Source of the DNA: Chlorella sorokiniana
Taxonomy: Eukaryota > Chlorophyta > Trebouxiophyceae > Chlorellales > Chlorellaceae
DNA length: 64,000 nt
Assembly: GCA_025917655.1 (NCBI GenBank)
Contig: CP084611.1
Coordinates: 3,658,001 to 3,722,000 of the forward strand
Reading direction: 5' to 3'
In this document: in pieces, positions 1,078-5,462 of the stretch
How positions within the stretch are numbered: the stretch's first letter is position 1
Layout: every line of letters begins with the position of its first letter
The notes under the pieces: model-generated
Told to the model about the DNA's origin: nothing
Databases searched by the model: none
Seen by the model: the letters and a program-made list of their open reading frames with translations, nothing else
Made by a program: the position numbers and the translations under genes

Positions 1078-1082
1078 TTACA
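1078..1082 (-). terminator. TGTAA polyadenylation motif of the DUF3253 gene
   Basis: TGTAA, the usual polyadenylation signal of chlorophyte algae, reads on the minus strand 111 nt beyond the SECIS-like hairpin and about 200 nt past the terminal TAG. This places the hairpin inside the 3' UTR. The motif is only five bases, so it is supportive only. Confidence 0.5.
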
Positions 1083-1192: not shown

Positions 1193-1263
1193 GGTGTAGA
1201 GCGGTTCAGCAGCTTCCTGCCCTCCAAAGAGCTTGTGGGGAGCCGCGTCATGTCAGCTCCACC
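1193..1263 (-). promoter_or_regulatory. SECIS-like hairpin (type II form) in the 3' UTR
   Basis: This lies 22 nt after the terminal TAG of the DUF3253 gene, read on the minus strand. Helix I pairs GGUG-GAGC (1263-1256) with GCUC-UA-CACC (1202-1193). An internal loop follows, then the 5' quartet strand AUGA (1251-1248) faces UGA (1208-1206). Helix II pairs GCGGC with GCUGC, then UCC with GGA around one bulged A. The unpaired AA (1234-1233) comes 13 nt after AUGA, within the canonical spacing. A CUC/GAG mini-stem above it gives the type II shape. The quartet fits the UGAN/NGAN rule. Pairing was done by hand, with no folding energy calculated. Confidence 0.75.
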
Positions 1264-1285
1264 CCCCTCCCCGCGCCAGCGCCTC

Positions 1286-1847
1286 CTAATCCTTCCGACA
1301 GCCAATGTTGCTGCCGCCAGGTGCTAGCCGGAAACGGACTGGCCCTTTGAAGGCATCGGGAGCCACCACCACTCCCTTCTGTGTGATGTGGATGATGCCT
1401 CGTCGAGCTAGCATCCTGCCCACATCCCGCGTGGCCTCCATGAGCTGACGCCAGCGGGTGGGGAAAGCTCGCCGCGGCACCTCGCTGGGTCAGCACGTCT
1501 TCCCTGGACCACGAGCGCGCAGTATCTCTAGCACTGTGCGCTCCAAGATAGCTAGTTCGTCCTGCATCAAACAGCATGCATGCAGATGGCCCAACCTGTT
1601 GGCAGGGTTGGGACAGGTGCAGCAACTCACTTACCGACGTTGCCGGCAAGCAAGTGCTGTCCTTCTGTATTTCACTGGTGGAATCAATCGCTGGCAAACC
1701 TCGGTCCTCCTGAGCTTGGATTTGCGGTGGGCCAGGCATTCCTGCTGCTTTTCGCCGTTGTCGCTGCTGCCGAGGTTCTTGCACTGCATCCTCGCCAGTG
1801 ATGGCAAGATCTCTTAGTGAAACCGATCTTCCTCGTTTGCTTGACAT
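1286..1847 (-). CDS. DUF3253-family small protein, candidate selenoprotein (in-frame TGA)
   Basis: Two exons: 1847-1635 (71 codons, ATG start, basic N-terminus) and 1561-1286. The intron has a perfect GTAAGT donor and a TTGATGCAG acceptor, in phase 0. The 162-codon product ends at TAG. Exon 2 is a whole DUF3253 domain: LEILRARGPGKTC, then TGA, then PSEVPRRAF, WRQLM, LARRGIIHITQKG and GPVRFRLA. As I remember the bacterial family, this region reads ICPSEVAR, so the TGA (codon 95) falls on the conserved Cys. The frame is intact on both sides, so a homopolymer indel cannot explain it. With the SECIS-like element just downstream, selenocysteine insertion is the best reading. Alternatives are a base-call error or a recent nonsense mutation. 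The function of DUF3253 is unknown. The gene is divergent from COQ8. Confidence 0.75.
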
Positions 1848-1994: not shown

Positions 1995-4900
1995 ATGTCG
2001 GGCAGAAACTTAGAAGACTTGCGGCGCATTCTTAGCGGGGTTGTCTCTGTCGCCCAGGCAGGGGCTGCAGACAGGTGTGAAAACCGTTGGGAGGATTGAA
2101 ATTGACTGTACTTGCGGTTCTGGCTGGCTGGCGTCTGGCTGCCTCTGCAGCGGCAGCCTGCTCGCTGGCGGCGTCATTGACGAGGGGCACCAACTCCCTG
2201 CCCTGCAGTGCCGTTGTTCGACGGTTGCTCAATGGTGATATTATTCCCAATGTACGGCCAGCCCAGGAGGCTTTGCGAGCGGCAGGTAAGACAGAGGCTG
2301 CAGTTTGAATGATGCTGAGGCACTGTGGACCCCACAAACAATTTCATGTGCCTGCAGGACAGCGTGCATTGCAGCAGCAGCAACAGCAACAGCCGCAGCA
2401 ACAGCAGCAGCAGCAGCAGCAGGAGTGGCAGCAACAGAGTCCAACTGGAGCCCTGTTGCGCTCGCAACCAGCTGTGTGTGGGCCCATCAGTTCCGCTGCA
2501 GAAGCTGGCCAGCAGCTCAAGAGAGCAGACGCTCCAGCCAGCTTGTCGAGCACACATGCAGTGCCACCAGCAGCAGCTTCCACCCCGCAGCTGCCAGCAG
2601 CATCACAGCTAGTACCAATTCCGCATGGGCATGATGCCACAGCGCAGCCACCCTCTTCTGAACTGGGTACGTCGGCGGCCGCATCCCATAACCGCAGCCC
2701 AGCATCGCACGAGCAGCCGCCGCCAGTGCGTGGTGACACACTATCCGTCACTGCTGATGCCACAGACTTGGTAGGCGGTTTGTCGGCAGGGGCAGAAGGC
2801 GCCGCAGCGGGGATGCTGTGAAGGGCCCCAGGCGCAGCCGGTTTGTTCCGCGCGGCGCGCCGTGCCCAGCAGCAGCCTGGGCCGCGTGGTGGGCTTTGCG
2901 CAGCTGGGCACCTCGCTGCTGTACGGCACGGTGAGGGAGGGCGTGAGCCGTGCCCTGGGCGGCGGCAGCAGGCAGGCCGACAGGTGAGCACAGCAGGCTG
3001 CGGCCGGCTTCCGCGCTGCTGCCTCGCCGCCTACCCCTTGCACTGCTCCCCATGGTGTTGTCACGTGAGCTGCCCTGGCTTGCCTCTTTTCCACGGTTGC
3101 AGCAGCGGCGGCGCCCACTCCACCAGCTCCTGGCTCACCGAGGACAACGCGGAGCGGCTGGCCAACGCGCTGTGCCGCATGCGCGGCGCCGCGCTCAAGC
3201 TGGGCCAGATGCTCAGCATCCAGGACGAGAACGTGCTGCCGCCGCAGTTTCAGGCTGCGCTGGAGCGGGTGCGGGCGGGGGCTGACGTCATGCCCCGCCG
3301 CCAGCTGCAGCAGGTGAACCGGGATACGCATGTGGGGAGGGGGGAGCTGTGTCGTGTGTGTTTGTTAAGTTGTGTGTGTGGGTGGGGGGTGGAGGGTTGG
3401 GCAGGGGGGCTTATTGTTGCTGCATCGAGGGCCGGCCATATCCATCCCGTCCCTCCCTGTCAAGCTTCCACCCGCCCGCTCTGCGGCAGGTTCTGGTTTC
3501 TGAGCTGGGGGAAGACTGGGAGACCAAGGTGGCGGAGTTTGACTGGCAGCCCATGGCGGCGGCATCCATCGGCCAGGTGCGCACCACTGAAGGGCGCCCA
3601 ATTGCCCTGCAGGCCGGCGGCAGCCAGCTCGTGGTCTGTTGATGGATGGCCTGGCGTCAACCCGCGCGTCGTCATGCCCCCTCCCCCGCACCAGGTGCAC
3701 TCTGCGCTGCTGCACGACGGGCGGCGCGTGGTGATGAAGGTGCAGTACCCGGGTGTGGCGCGGTCCATCGAGAGCGACGTGGACAACCTGATGCGCCTCG
3801 TGTCGCTGGCCAACATACTGCCCAGGGGGCTGTACGTGGAGAACGCGGGTGGGGAGGCGGCGCCGCCCCTCTGGATGCCGGCGGCAGTGCAATGGTCGCT
3901 CGAAGAGGGGCCTCAACAGCAGGACCTTGCCTCGGCTCAAGTGCGGTGCCCGCAGCGGCCCTGCCTCCTTACAGCGAGCCACACCACGCGCGCGCCGCCC
4001 CCTTCCCGTAGTGAGCGTCGCCAAGCGCGAGCTGCGCCTGGAGTGCGACTACCGGTACGAGCTGCAGAGCCAGCAGCGGTTCAAGGCGCTGGTGGCGGCA
4101 GATGCCTACGCGGCGCAGGTGGGGCCGCCCACGGCAGCGGGCCCGAGCCGCGGCGCAGGGCTCGCCAGCTTGCCAAAAGCCTGCCAGCGAGCAGCCTTGC
4201 CTGGCCTCCACCACCGGCCTCATTGCTCTTTGCCGGCACCTCTCCCCGCATAGCCAGCGCTGTTCTTTACGCAGCCTCCGTTTGCCCTACCCTCCACCCC
4301 CACCCCAACAACCACGCACGCTGCGCTTGGCGCAGCATTTCTACGTGCCCGACGTGGTGGCGGAGCTGTCCACGGAGCGGGTGCTGGCCAGCGAGTGGGT
4401 GGCGGGGTGCACATCGACCGCGTGGCGGAGATGGGGCAGGGCGTGCGCGACGCCGTGGGCACCGCGCTGCTCAAGCTGACGCTCAGGGAGCTCTTCCTGT
4501 GGCGCTACATGCAGACCGACCCAAACTGGTGGGTGGGGAGGGAGGCGGCGGGGCAGGGCAGGCAGGGCACGATGCATGGCTCTGCATGTCAGCCCAGCCT
4601 TCGGCCTCCTCCCGACCCCGTCCGCCCCACTGCATGCGCGGCCCTCCCCCGCAGGGGCAACTTTTTGTACGACGAGGCCAGCGGGCGCATCAACCTGATC
4701 GACTTTGGCGCCGCCAAGGACTACCCGCCCCACTTTGTGGCCGACTACCTGGAGATGGTGCGGGCGTGCGCGGAGCGGGACCGGCAGCAAATCATCGACC
4801 GCTCCACCAGCCTGGGATTCCTCACGGGTGGGCGGACGCGGAGCTGGGGAGGGGGAGGGAGGTTGCTATATTGGGGGCCCAGCGCTGGAGCACGCTTGCT

Positions 4901-5462
4901 GTGCTGGTTGTGTTTCGCGATCAGCAGCATGATCGCCGCTGCAGCTGTGCTGGCGCGCGAGCTATGGTTGCTTCCATGCCCTGCATTCCAGGCGATGAGT
5001 CCCCCGTCATGCTGGATGCCCACGTGGAGGCTGGCATCATGGTGGGCCTGCCCTTCGGCCACCCTGGCATCTACGACTTTGGCAGCCACGGCGGCTTGAC
5101 GCGCCGCGTCAGCGAGCTGGGTGCCGTCATGCTTAAGCACCGCCTCACGCCGGTGAGTGCCGTGAGAGCGAGATACAATGGATTCCCGCTGGGCACCTGG
5201 CGGGTGGACTGAGGGGGCCACTCGTAGCAAGGAAGACAAGGTGCTGCCCCTGTTCCATGCCGTGCAGCCTCCCGACGAAAGCTACAGCCTGCACCGCAAG
5301 CTCAGCGGCGCATTCCTGGCGTGCATCAAGCTGAAGGCGCGTGTGCCGTGCCGCGAGCTGTTCCTGGAGGCCTACGATGCCCACCAGGCCCTGCTTGCGG
5401 CGGAGTCACAGCACAGTGCGGAGGTGGTGGAGCGGCAGCACGCGCGAGCAGCCACAGGGTAG
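1995..5462 (+). CDS. COQ8: COQ8/ADCK3-type ABC1 atypical kinase (ubiquinone biosynthesis)
   Basis: UbiB-family ATPase/kinase that supports the coenzyme Q biosynthetic complex, usually at the mitochondrial inner membrane. Twelve exons fit: 1995-2074, 2209-2285, 2358-2770, 2832-2983, 3103-3313, 3490-3576, 3695-3848, 4012-4118, 4336-4528, 4655-4827, 4992-5152 and 5268-5462. Diagnostic motifs run in order: [10 protein letters not shown] (the KxGQ motif of COQ8), AASIGQVH (Ala-rich loop), [10 protein letters not shown] (Lys), TDPNWGNF (catalytic loop) and LIDFGAA (DFG). The C-terminus, [19 protein letters not shown], matches human ADCK3 closely. The N-terminal part (exon 3) is a Gln/Pro/Ser-rich insert unlike animal COQ8. 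Exons 1-4 rest on splice motifs only. Near 4408 one G is missing from a G run, so the frame slips between two well conserved halves; this is probably an assembly error. Confidence 0.9.
2370..2432 (+). repeat. CAG/CAA repeat encoding polyglutamine in COQ8
   Basis: Imperfect CAG/CAA trinucleotide tract that encodes about 19 Gln within 23 residues, interrupted by Pro, Glu and Trp, in exon 3 of the COQ8 model. The opposite strand gives a Cys- or Leu-rich shadow frame. Length polymorphism between strains is likely. Confidence 0.85.

Follow-up and report, generated by a model that had tools for sequence, protein, structure and literature searches.

On the minus strand of a 64-kb window of the Chlorella sorokiniana genome (the window being the whole stretch of 64,000 nucleotides that was analysed, in whose coordinates all window positions below are given), we find a two-exon gene with a single in-frame TGA at the position of a cysteine that is conserved in DUF3253 proteins. 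Its stop codon is followed by a hairpin with SECIS geometry. The best reading, to which we assign a probability of about 85%, is that the gene encodes a genuine selenoprotein of 162 residues. Selenocysteine (Sec) insertion in eukaryotes by way of SBP2, the SECIS quartet and eEFSec is an established mechanism. Here, the UGA at codon 95 would be read as Sec during translation: SBP2 would bind the SECIS in the 3' UTR at its non-Watson-Crick quartet (AUGA/UGA) and recruit eEFSec together with Sec-tRNA-Sec. The product would be a winged-helix DUF3253 protein in which the family cysteine is replaced by Sec and the preceding residue, usually isoleucine, is now cysteine. Such a Cys-Sec pair would most likely serve as a fast redox switch or a nucleophile in a nucleic-acid-binding protein.

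The gene and the signals around it are laid out as follows, with the basis of each assignment in brackets.

1286-1847, minus strand: gene of two exons, 162 residues with the TGA read as an amino acid
1635-1847, minus strand: coding part of exon 1, 71 codons, with a putative start ATG at 1847-1845 (open reading frame)
1562-1634, minus strand: GT-AG intron of 73 nt, phase 0 (predicted from sequence alone)
1286-1561, minus strand: exon 2, 91 residues, with the DUF3253 domain and ending in TAG (frame and PF11625 match)
1490-1492, minus strand: in-frame TGA, the proposed Sec codon, residue 24 of exon 2 and residue 95 of 162 in the protein (frame and alignment to the family cysteine)
1286-1288, minus strand: TAG stop codon (sequence)
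1078-1082, minus strand: TGTAA, which we take to be a possible green-algal polyadenylation signal (sequence)

Within exon 2, the TGA at 1492-1490 is the sole in-frame stop ahead of the TAG at 1288-1286. Splicing and the start codon would be as listed. What speaks for exon 1, which has no homologue and no Pfam match over its 71 codons, is just that it is open. Removal of the TGA by splicing was considered by eye: the nearest AG after it falls in the next two codons (CCCAG), and any such intron would also delete the conserved Pro 25. A divergent neighbour gene lies at 2843-5212 on the plus strand of the window; it has a partial ABC1 atypical kinase domain (PF03109, 39.3 bits) and is apparently interrupted by introns.

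With the TGA read through, exon 2 matches DUF3253 (PF11625) at 80.8 bits (E 8.8e-23), and in a six-frame search of the whole genome at E <= 0.001 the same family marks a single place, with one TGA inside, at 75.6 bits; both scores clear the curated cut-off (22.1 bits) by a wide margin. Taken alone, the 67 residues C-terminal of the TGA still match DUF3253 (55.2 bits, E 8.3e-15). No such match is seen for the 23 exon-2 residues preceding it when they are taken alone, though they add to the total score. A profile search returned 1677 relatives, and the best 120 of these were used for comparison. In every one of the 120, the column of the TGA (residue 24) is cysteine. Nine columns are invariant across these best 120 of 1677 homologues; the alga keeps the other eight, all of which lie C-terminal of the TGA. 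Consistent with this, the codon at the TGA position is TGC at 52 and TGT at 7 bacterial genome loci, that is, cysteine at 59 of 59. The residue before it is where the alga departs from the family: position 23 is Ile in 117, Leu in 2 and Phe in 1 of the same 120 homologues, whereas the alga has a cysteine, and this Cys 23 adjoins the proposed Sec 24.

Much of this gene had been described in an earlier note on this DNA. The two exons, the single in-frame TGA and the frame continuing to the TAG were borne out by reading the minus strand, and the TGTAA is indeed found downstream of the hairpin, at 1082-1078. The DUF3253 homology said to flank the TGA is also there, with the part before the TGA matching only jointly with the remainder. 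The alignment of the TGA with the cysteine of the family, which the note had proposed, proved exact in proteins and genome loci alike.

The genome (38.8 Mb) contains genes of the Sec decoding machinery, some of them as candidates. A tRNA-SeC(tca) on contig C8 scores 67.6 bits (cut-off 47); three weaker tRNA-Sec matches turned out on a second check to be other tRNAs. SepSecS (best exon 164.9 bits) and the eEFSec_4th domain (38.3 bits, with matches in 0 of 14 control genomes) are both on C3 and both over their curated cut-offs. Candidate SelD exons on C8 reach 64.1 bits (cut-off 125) and have GGCGSK, without a TGA, at what is presumably the active site. A PSTK candidate on C3 scores 91.8 bits (cut-off 382), and an SBP2 candidate on C6 is a weak match to the solved SBP2 structure 7zjw (E 7.1e-6 overall and 2.1e-4 in its best stretch). 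Across the 14 control genomes, RF01852 gave matches in 14 (5 over its cut-off), PF05889 in 3, PF21131 in 0, TIGR00476 in 14 (2 over its cut-off) and TIGR03575 in 1. Because most of these models also give matches in control genomes, no single machinery match amounts to proof. Judged by these genes, the genome is evidently one that decodes Sec. Contig C15 (117,793 bases, 31% G+C), with psaB, psbA and part of rbcL, is a green-algal plastid genome. Of the solved structures, 6zzx, from Chlorella ohadii, is the closest to its PsaB (1669 bits, with 1592 for the runner-up), and the organism is accordingly likely to be a Chlorella-like trebouxiophyte.

Other putative selenoprotein genes of the same genome provide a standard of comparison. 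Two GPx genes have a TGA at the catalytic position and a SECIS-like element after each (GPx-C5 and GPx-C7); their TGA stretches score 22.8 and 22.6 bits against PF00255, under its cut-off of 27. In the GPx gene at L011 (C7) 414-416, which reads NVASE-TGA-PLQNVNY, the TGA is followed by Pro, and the other TGA GPx has Gly. In a gene on C11, TGA-LFC lies upstream of a PF13911 match, and the SECIS-like element of this gene reaches -47.8 kcal/mol. We assigned this gene by eye as SelU-like; its 46-residue TGA stretch alone matched no Pfam family. In the SelT gene (L020, C3, ~946-1686), FCTRSFKG takes the place of the expected CxxU and contains no TGA, yet a SECIS-like element follows the stop of this gene (L020 1770-1850; -35.4 kcal/mol by our scanner, 29.4 bits by Rfam). 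Either the Sec of SelT was lost while the SECIS was kept, or three bases are missing in the assembly. At eight places matching PF02852, neither a TGA thioredoxin reductase nor a SECIS was seen. The four comparison elements are themselves predictions, two of them first found by our own scanner and one following a SelT gene without TGA.

Downstream of the DUF3253 stop codon, the proposed SECIS has these parts.

1193-1264, minus strand: SECIS-like element (scanner and folding; weak or absent in covariance models)
1264-1256 paired with 1202-1193, minus strand: helix I, 9 pairs with one bulge
1251-1248, minus strand: ATGA of the quartet
1246-1238 paired with 1217-1209, minus strand: helix II, 8 pairs with one mismatch
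1234-1233, minus strand: apical AA, 13 nt after the ATGA
1232-1228 paired with 1223-1219, minus strand: mini-stem
1208-1206, minus strand: TGA partner, 24 nt after the AA

The two GPx genes and the SelU-like gene likewise have a TGA within the reading frame and a SECIS in the 3' UTR, and their elements agree with that of the DUF3253 gene in the ATGAC core, the apical AA at a distance of 12-13 nt, the GA partner and both helices. The ATGAC core is common to the elements of all five genes, SelT included. Helix II is shorter in the DUF3253 element, 8 pairs with a mismatch as against 10 pairs in the GPx and SelU-like elements.

To find such elements, our scanner looks for an ATGA followed at 9-14 nt by an AA, and requires a GA partner as well as both helices. 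Since these rules were written after the element had been seen, the scanner and shuffle figures are somewhat flattering to it. On both strands of the 64-kb window, the scanner found two places, of which the DUF3253 element is the better (-26.7 vs -16.2 kcal/mol). When the 300 nt after the stop were dinucleotide-shuffled 20,000 times, any hit at all appeared in 200 shuffles, a hit of -20 kcal/mol or below in 82 and a hit as good as the real one in 19. The bare motif ATGAC-N(9-12)-AA-N(8-38)-TGA has one occurrence in the window, where 0.85 would be expected by chance; what is rare is therefore not the motif by itself but its placement just past the DUF3253 stop. At the other loci scanned in the genome, the scanner matched three of the four other SECIS-like elements, two of which it had been the first to find, and missed GPx-C7, though this is matched by Rfam; it also returned two nuclear sites taken for chance (-21.5 and -14.7) and 19 weak plastid ones (best -17.3).

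Covariance models were less favourable. Rfam SECIS_1 gave no match to the DUF3253 element up to E 10. It matched two of the four other elements, with scores of 29.4 and 24.6 bits that do not reach its gathering score of 35, and its miss is given limited weight because the other two were missed as well. A model built from the two GPx SECIS (R1), which we judged too narrow, missed the DUF3253 and SelT elements and matched the SelU-like one at 17.9 bits. A second model (R2), for which ten synthetic sequences with a generic SECIS geometry were used, recovered two of the four other elements with default filters and three clearly with filters off. In this latter setting, the four scored 21.8, 21.7, 20.5 and 10.7 bits and the DUF3253 element came last of 21 matches at 9.3 bits, so that both it and GPx-C5 (10.7) fall among chance matches.

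Folding gave a divided picture. Eight pieces were folded. Both SECIS helices appeared in the minimum-energy fold of three, including 1193-1264 alone (-25.3 kcal/mol). In five of the eight, including all four of at least 93 nt, the minimum-energy fold was a competing hairpin, GGAGCUG/CGGCUCC. Holding the quartet and the AA open cost 0.2 kcal/mol in 76 nt and nothing in longer context; the nil cost is no evidence, because the competing fold also leaves the quartet and AA open. For comparison, the GPx-C7 SECIS held open in longer context cost 5.4 kcal/mol. The hairpin claimed in the earlier note stands in its ATGA, its spacings of 13 and 24 nt, its helices and its mini-stem, with a distance from TAG to helix I of 21 nt and not 22. 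As to its score, the geometric and energetic scan speaks for it, and Rfam SECIS_1 (no match) and our own covariance models (9.3 bits or none) do not. The note had also raised the possibility that the organism lacks Sec machinery; it does not lack it, with tRNA-Sec, SepSecS and eEFSec over their cut-offs and SelD, PSTK and SBP2 present as candidates.

Could the TGA instead mark a dead gene? An acquired bacterial-type DUF3253 gene might have suffered a nonsense mutation at its cysteine codon, with the SECIS-like hairpin there by chance. A single change turns TGC or TGT into TGA, the gene is the only match in the genome, the searches run showed no TGA relative, and its branch in the tree is long. 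The hairpin, for its part, is rated weakly by covariance models, is outdone in longer pieces by a hairpin that folds better, and contains a bare motif of which 0.85 would be expected per window. However, we consider such a pseudogene improbable: 91 codons run without any other stop or frameshift, 8 of the 9 columns invariant in the best 120 of 1677 homologues are kept, the sole stop is a TGA and sits on the family cysteine, and a hit as good arose in only 19 of 20,000 shuffles.

An error of sequencing or assembly, with TGC or TGT as the true codon and an ordinary Cys DUF3253 protein as the product, would have to have struck the family cysteine in a gene that also has a SECIS-like element. We regard this as very unlikely, even with one assembly at hand in which SelT is without its expected Sec despite a SECIS-like element, so that small errors are possible. 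Finally, ribosomes might pass the UGA without any Sec insertion directed by the SECIS, or might end there as at an ordinary stop, which would yield a 94-residue protein. Both exon 1 and the stretch of exon 2 ahead of the TGA are free of stops, as suits a short product, but such a product would lose most of DUF3253, including the eight other columns invariant in the best 120 of 1677 homologues, all past the TGA, and would retain 23 residues of the domain that are matchless alone. We find either outcome hardly credible. The selenoprotein reading is the one that we prefer.

The fold of the proposed selenoprotein was predicted in its Cys form. AlphaFold2, run with 40 sequences, gave a model with pLDDT 92.6 and pTM 0.81, in which a helix, a short strand, two helices and three strands follow in this order, a predicted winged helix. 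Residue 24 follows the first strand and precedes the second helix. A Foldseek search of the PDB with the Cys-form model had 2ns0 as its best match (E 3.8e-7) and its sole match below 0.001; the matches after it include winged-helix regulators, Zalpha and O-methyltransferases. This best match, Rhodococcus RHA04536 (PDB 2NS0), has the same DUF3253 (PF11625) domain as the alga, with 41-42% identity and the same predicted fold.

DUF2256 (PF10013) is also present in about a third (~40) of the best 120 DUF3253 proteins (P0036-P0121), a hint that DUF3253 works with nucleic acid. The Cys pairs of DUF2256 in those proteins resemble a zinc ribbon. Exon 1 of the alga showed no match to DUF2256 (PF10013), and neighbour genes listed at 10 of the 59 bacterial DUF3253 loci revealed no evident common partner. 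From the predicted fold and the chemistry of the site, we infer a redox-sensitive nucleic-acid-binding role. A more specific proposal is tentative, and we think it rather doubtful as a whole: that the protein is a selenium-dependent, nucleic-acid-binding winged-helix regulator, whose new Cys-Sec pair would switch its binding of DNA or RNA according to redox state, and which would have arisen by algal Cys-to-Sec conversion of a bacterial Cys protein.

Among the best 120 of 1677 homologues, those bearing an organism name are bacterial. A single-sequence search, with 9 candidates scored, returned only P0003, a Cys form of 88 aa that is 48% identical to the algal sequence and shares PSEVPR and MEATR with it. 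P0003 could be the Cys-containing equivalent of the algal protein in another eukaryote, or could belong to the lineage of the donor. With the 162-residue query, no relative was found among 104 candidates; the viral contigs yielded none either, and no relative named as algal was found by the single-sequence searches or in the viral contigs. In a tree of 43 rows, the alga groups with P0003 (83/64), although both are long branches whose join may be false, and the resolution is too poor for naming a donor. A transfer from bacteria followed by a change from Cys to Sec is the likely history.

A comparable case is AhpC_b of Thalassiosira oceanica, for which the authors suggest horizontal transfer; it is likewise an algal selenoprotein with prokaryotic Cys homologues, but has an AhpC/TSA domain with a UxxC motif and not DUF3253 (PMC7539508). 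The same paper gives, from a survey of 137 algae, 42 selenoprotein families, three of them new (PMC7539508). The terms 'DUF', 'winged' and 'HTH' are absent from the main text of that paper, and a 'Hypo' family is included that the passages searched leave undefined (PMC7539508). In the literature searched, which comprised the main texts of journal papers outside subscription, DUF3253 is not mentioned and no function for it is on record, though an earlier listing elsewhere is conceivable; two papers mention DUF2256 without DUF3253. Titles and abstracts searched for selenoproteins with a winged helix and for new selenoprotein families likewise had nothing on DUF3253. The earlier statement that no DUF3253 selenoprotein has been described thus holds within the literature searched, to which DUF3253 would be a new selenoprotein family.

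New eukaryotic selenoprotein families are seldom found. The usual place of Sec is a redox enzyme, often one with a thioredoxin fold, and its presence in a winged-helix domain would for this reason be unexpected: in contrast to the thioredoxin-fold enzymes among eukaryotic selenoproteins, DUF3253 is a predicted winged helix. Sec at this site would mark the cysteine of an uncharacterised bacterial family as chemically active, and would offer a direct way of testing the function of this cysteine. Gene callers that end at a TGA would miss genes of this kind, and as a result more of them may be hidden in algal genomes.
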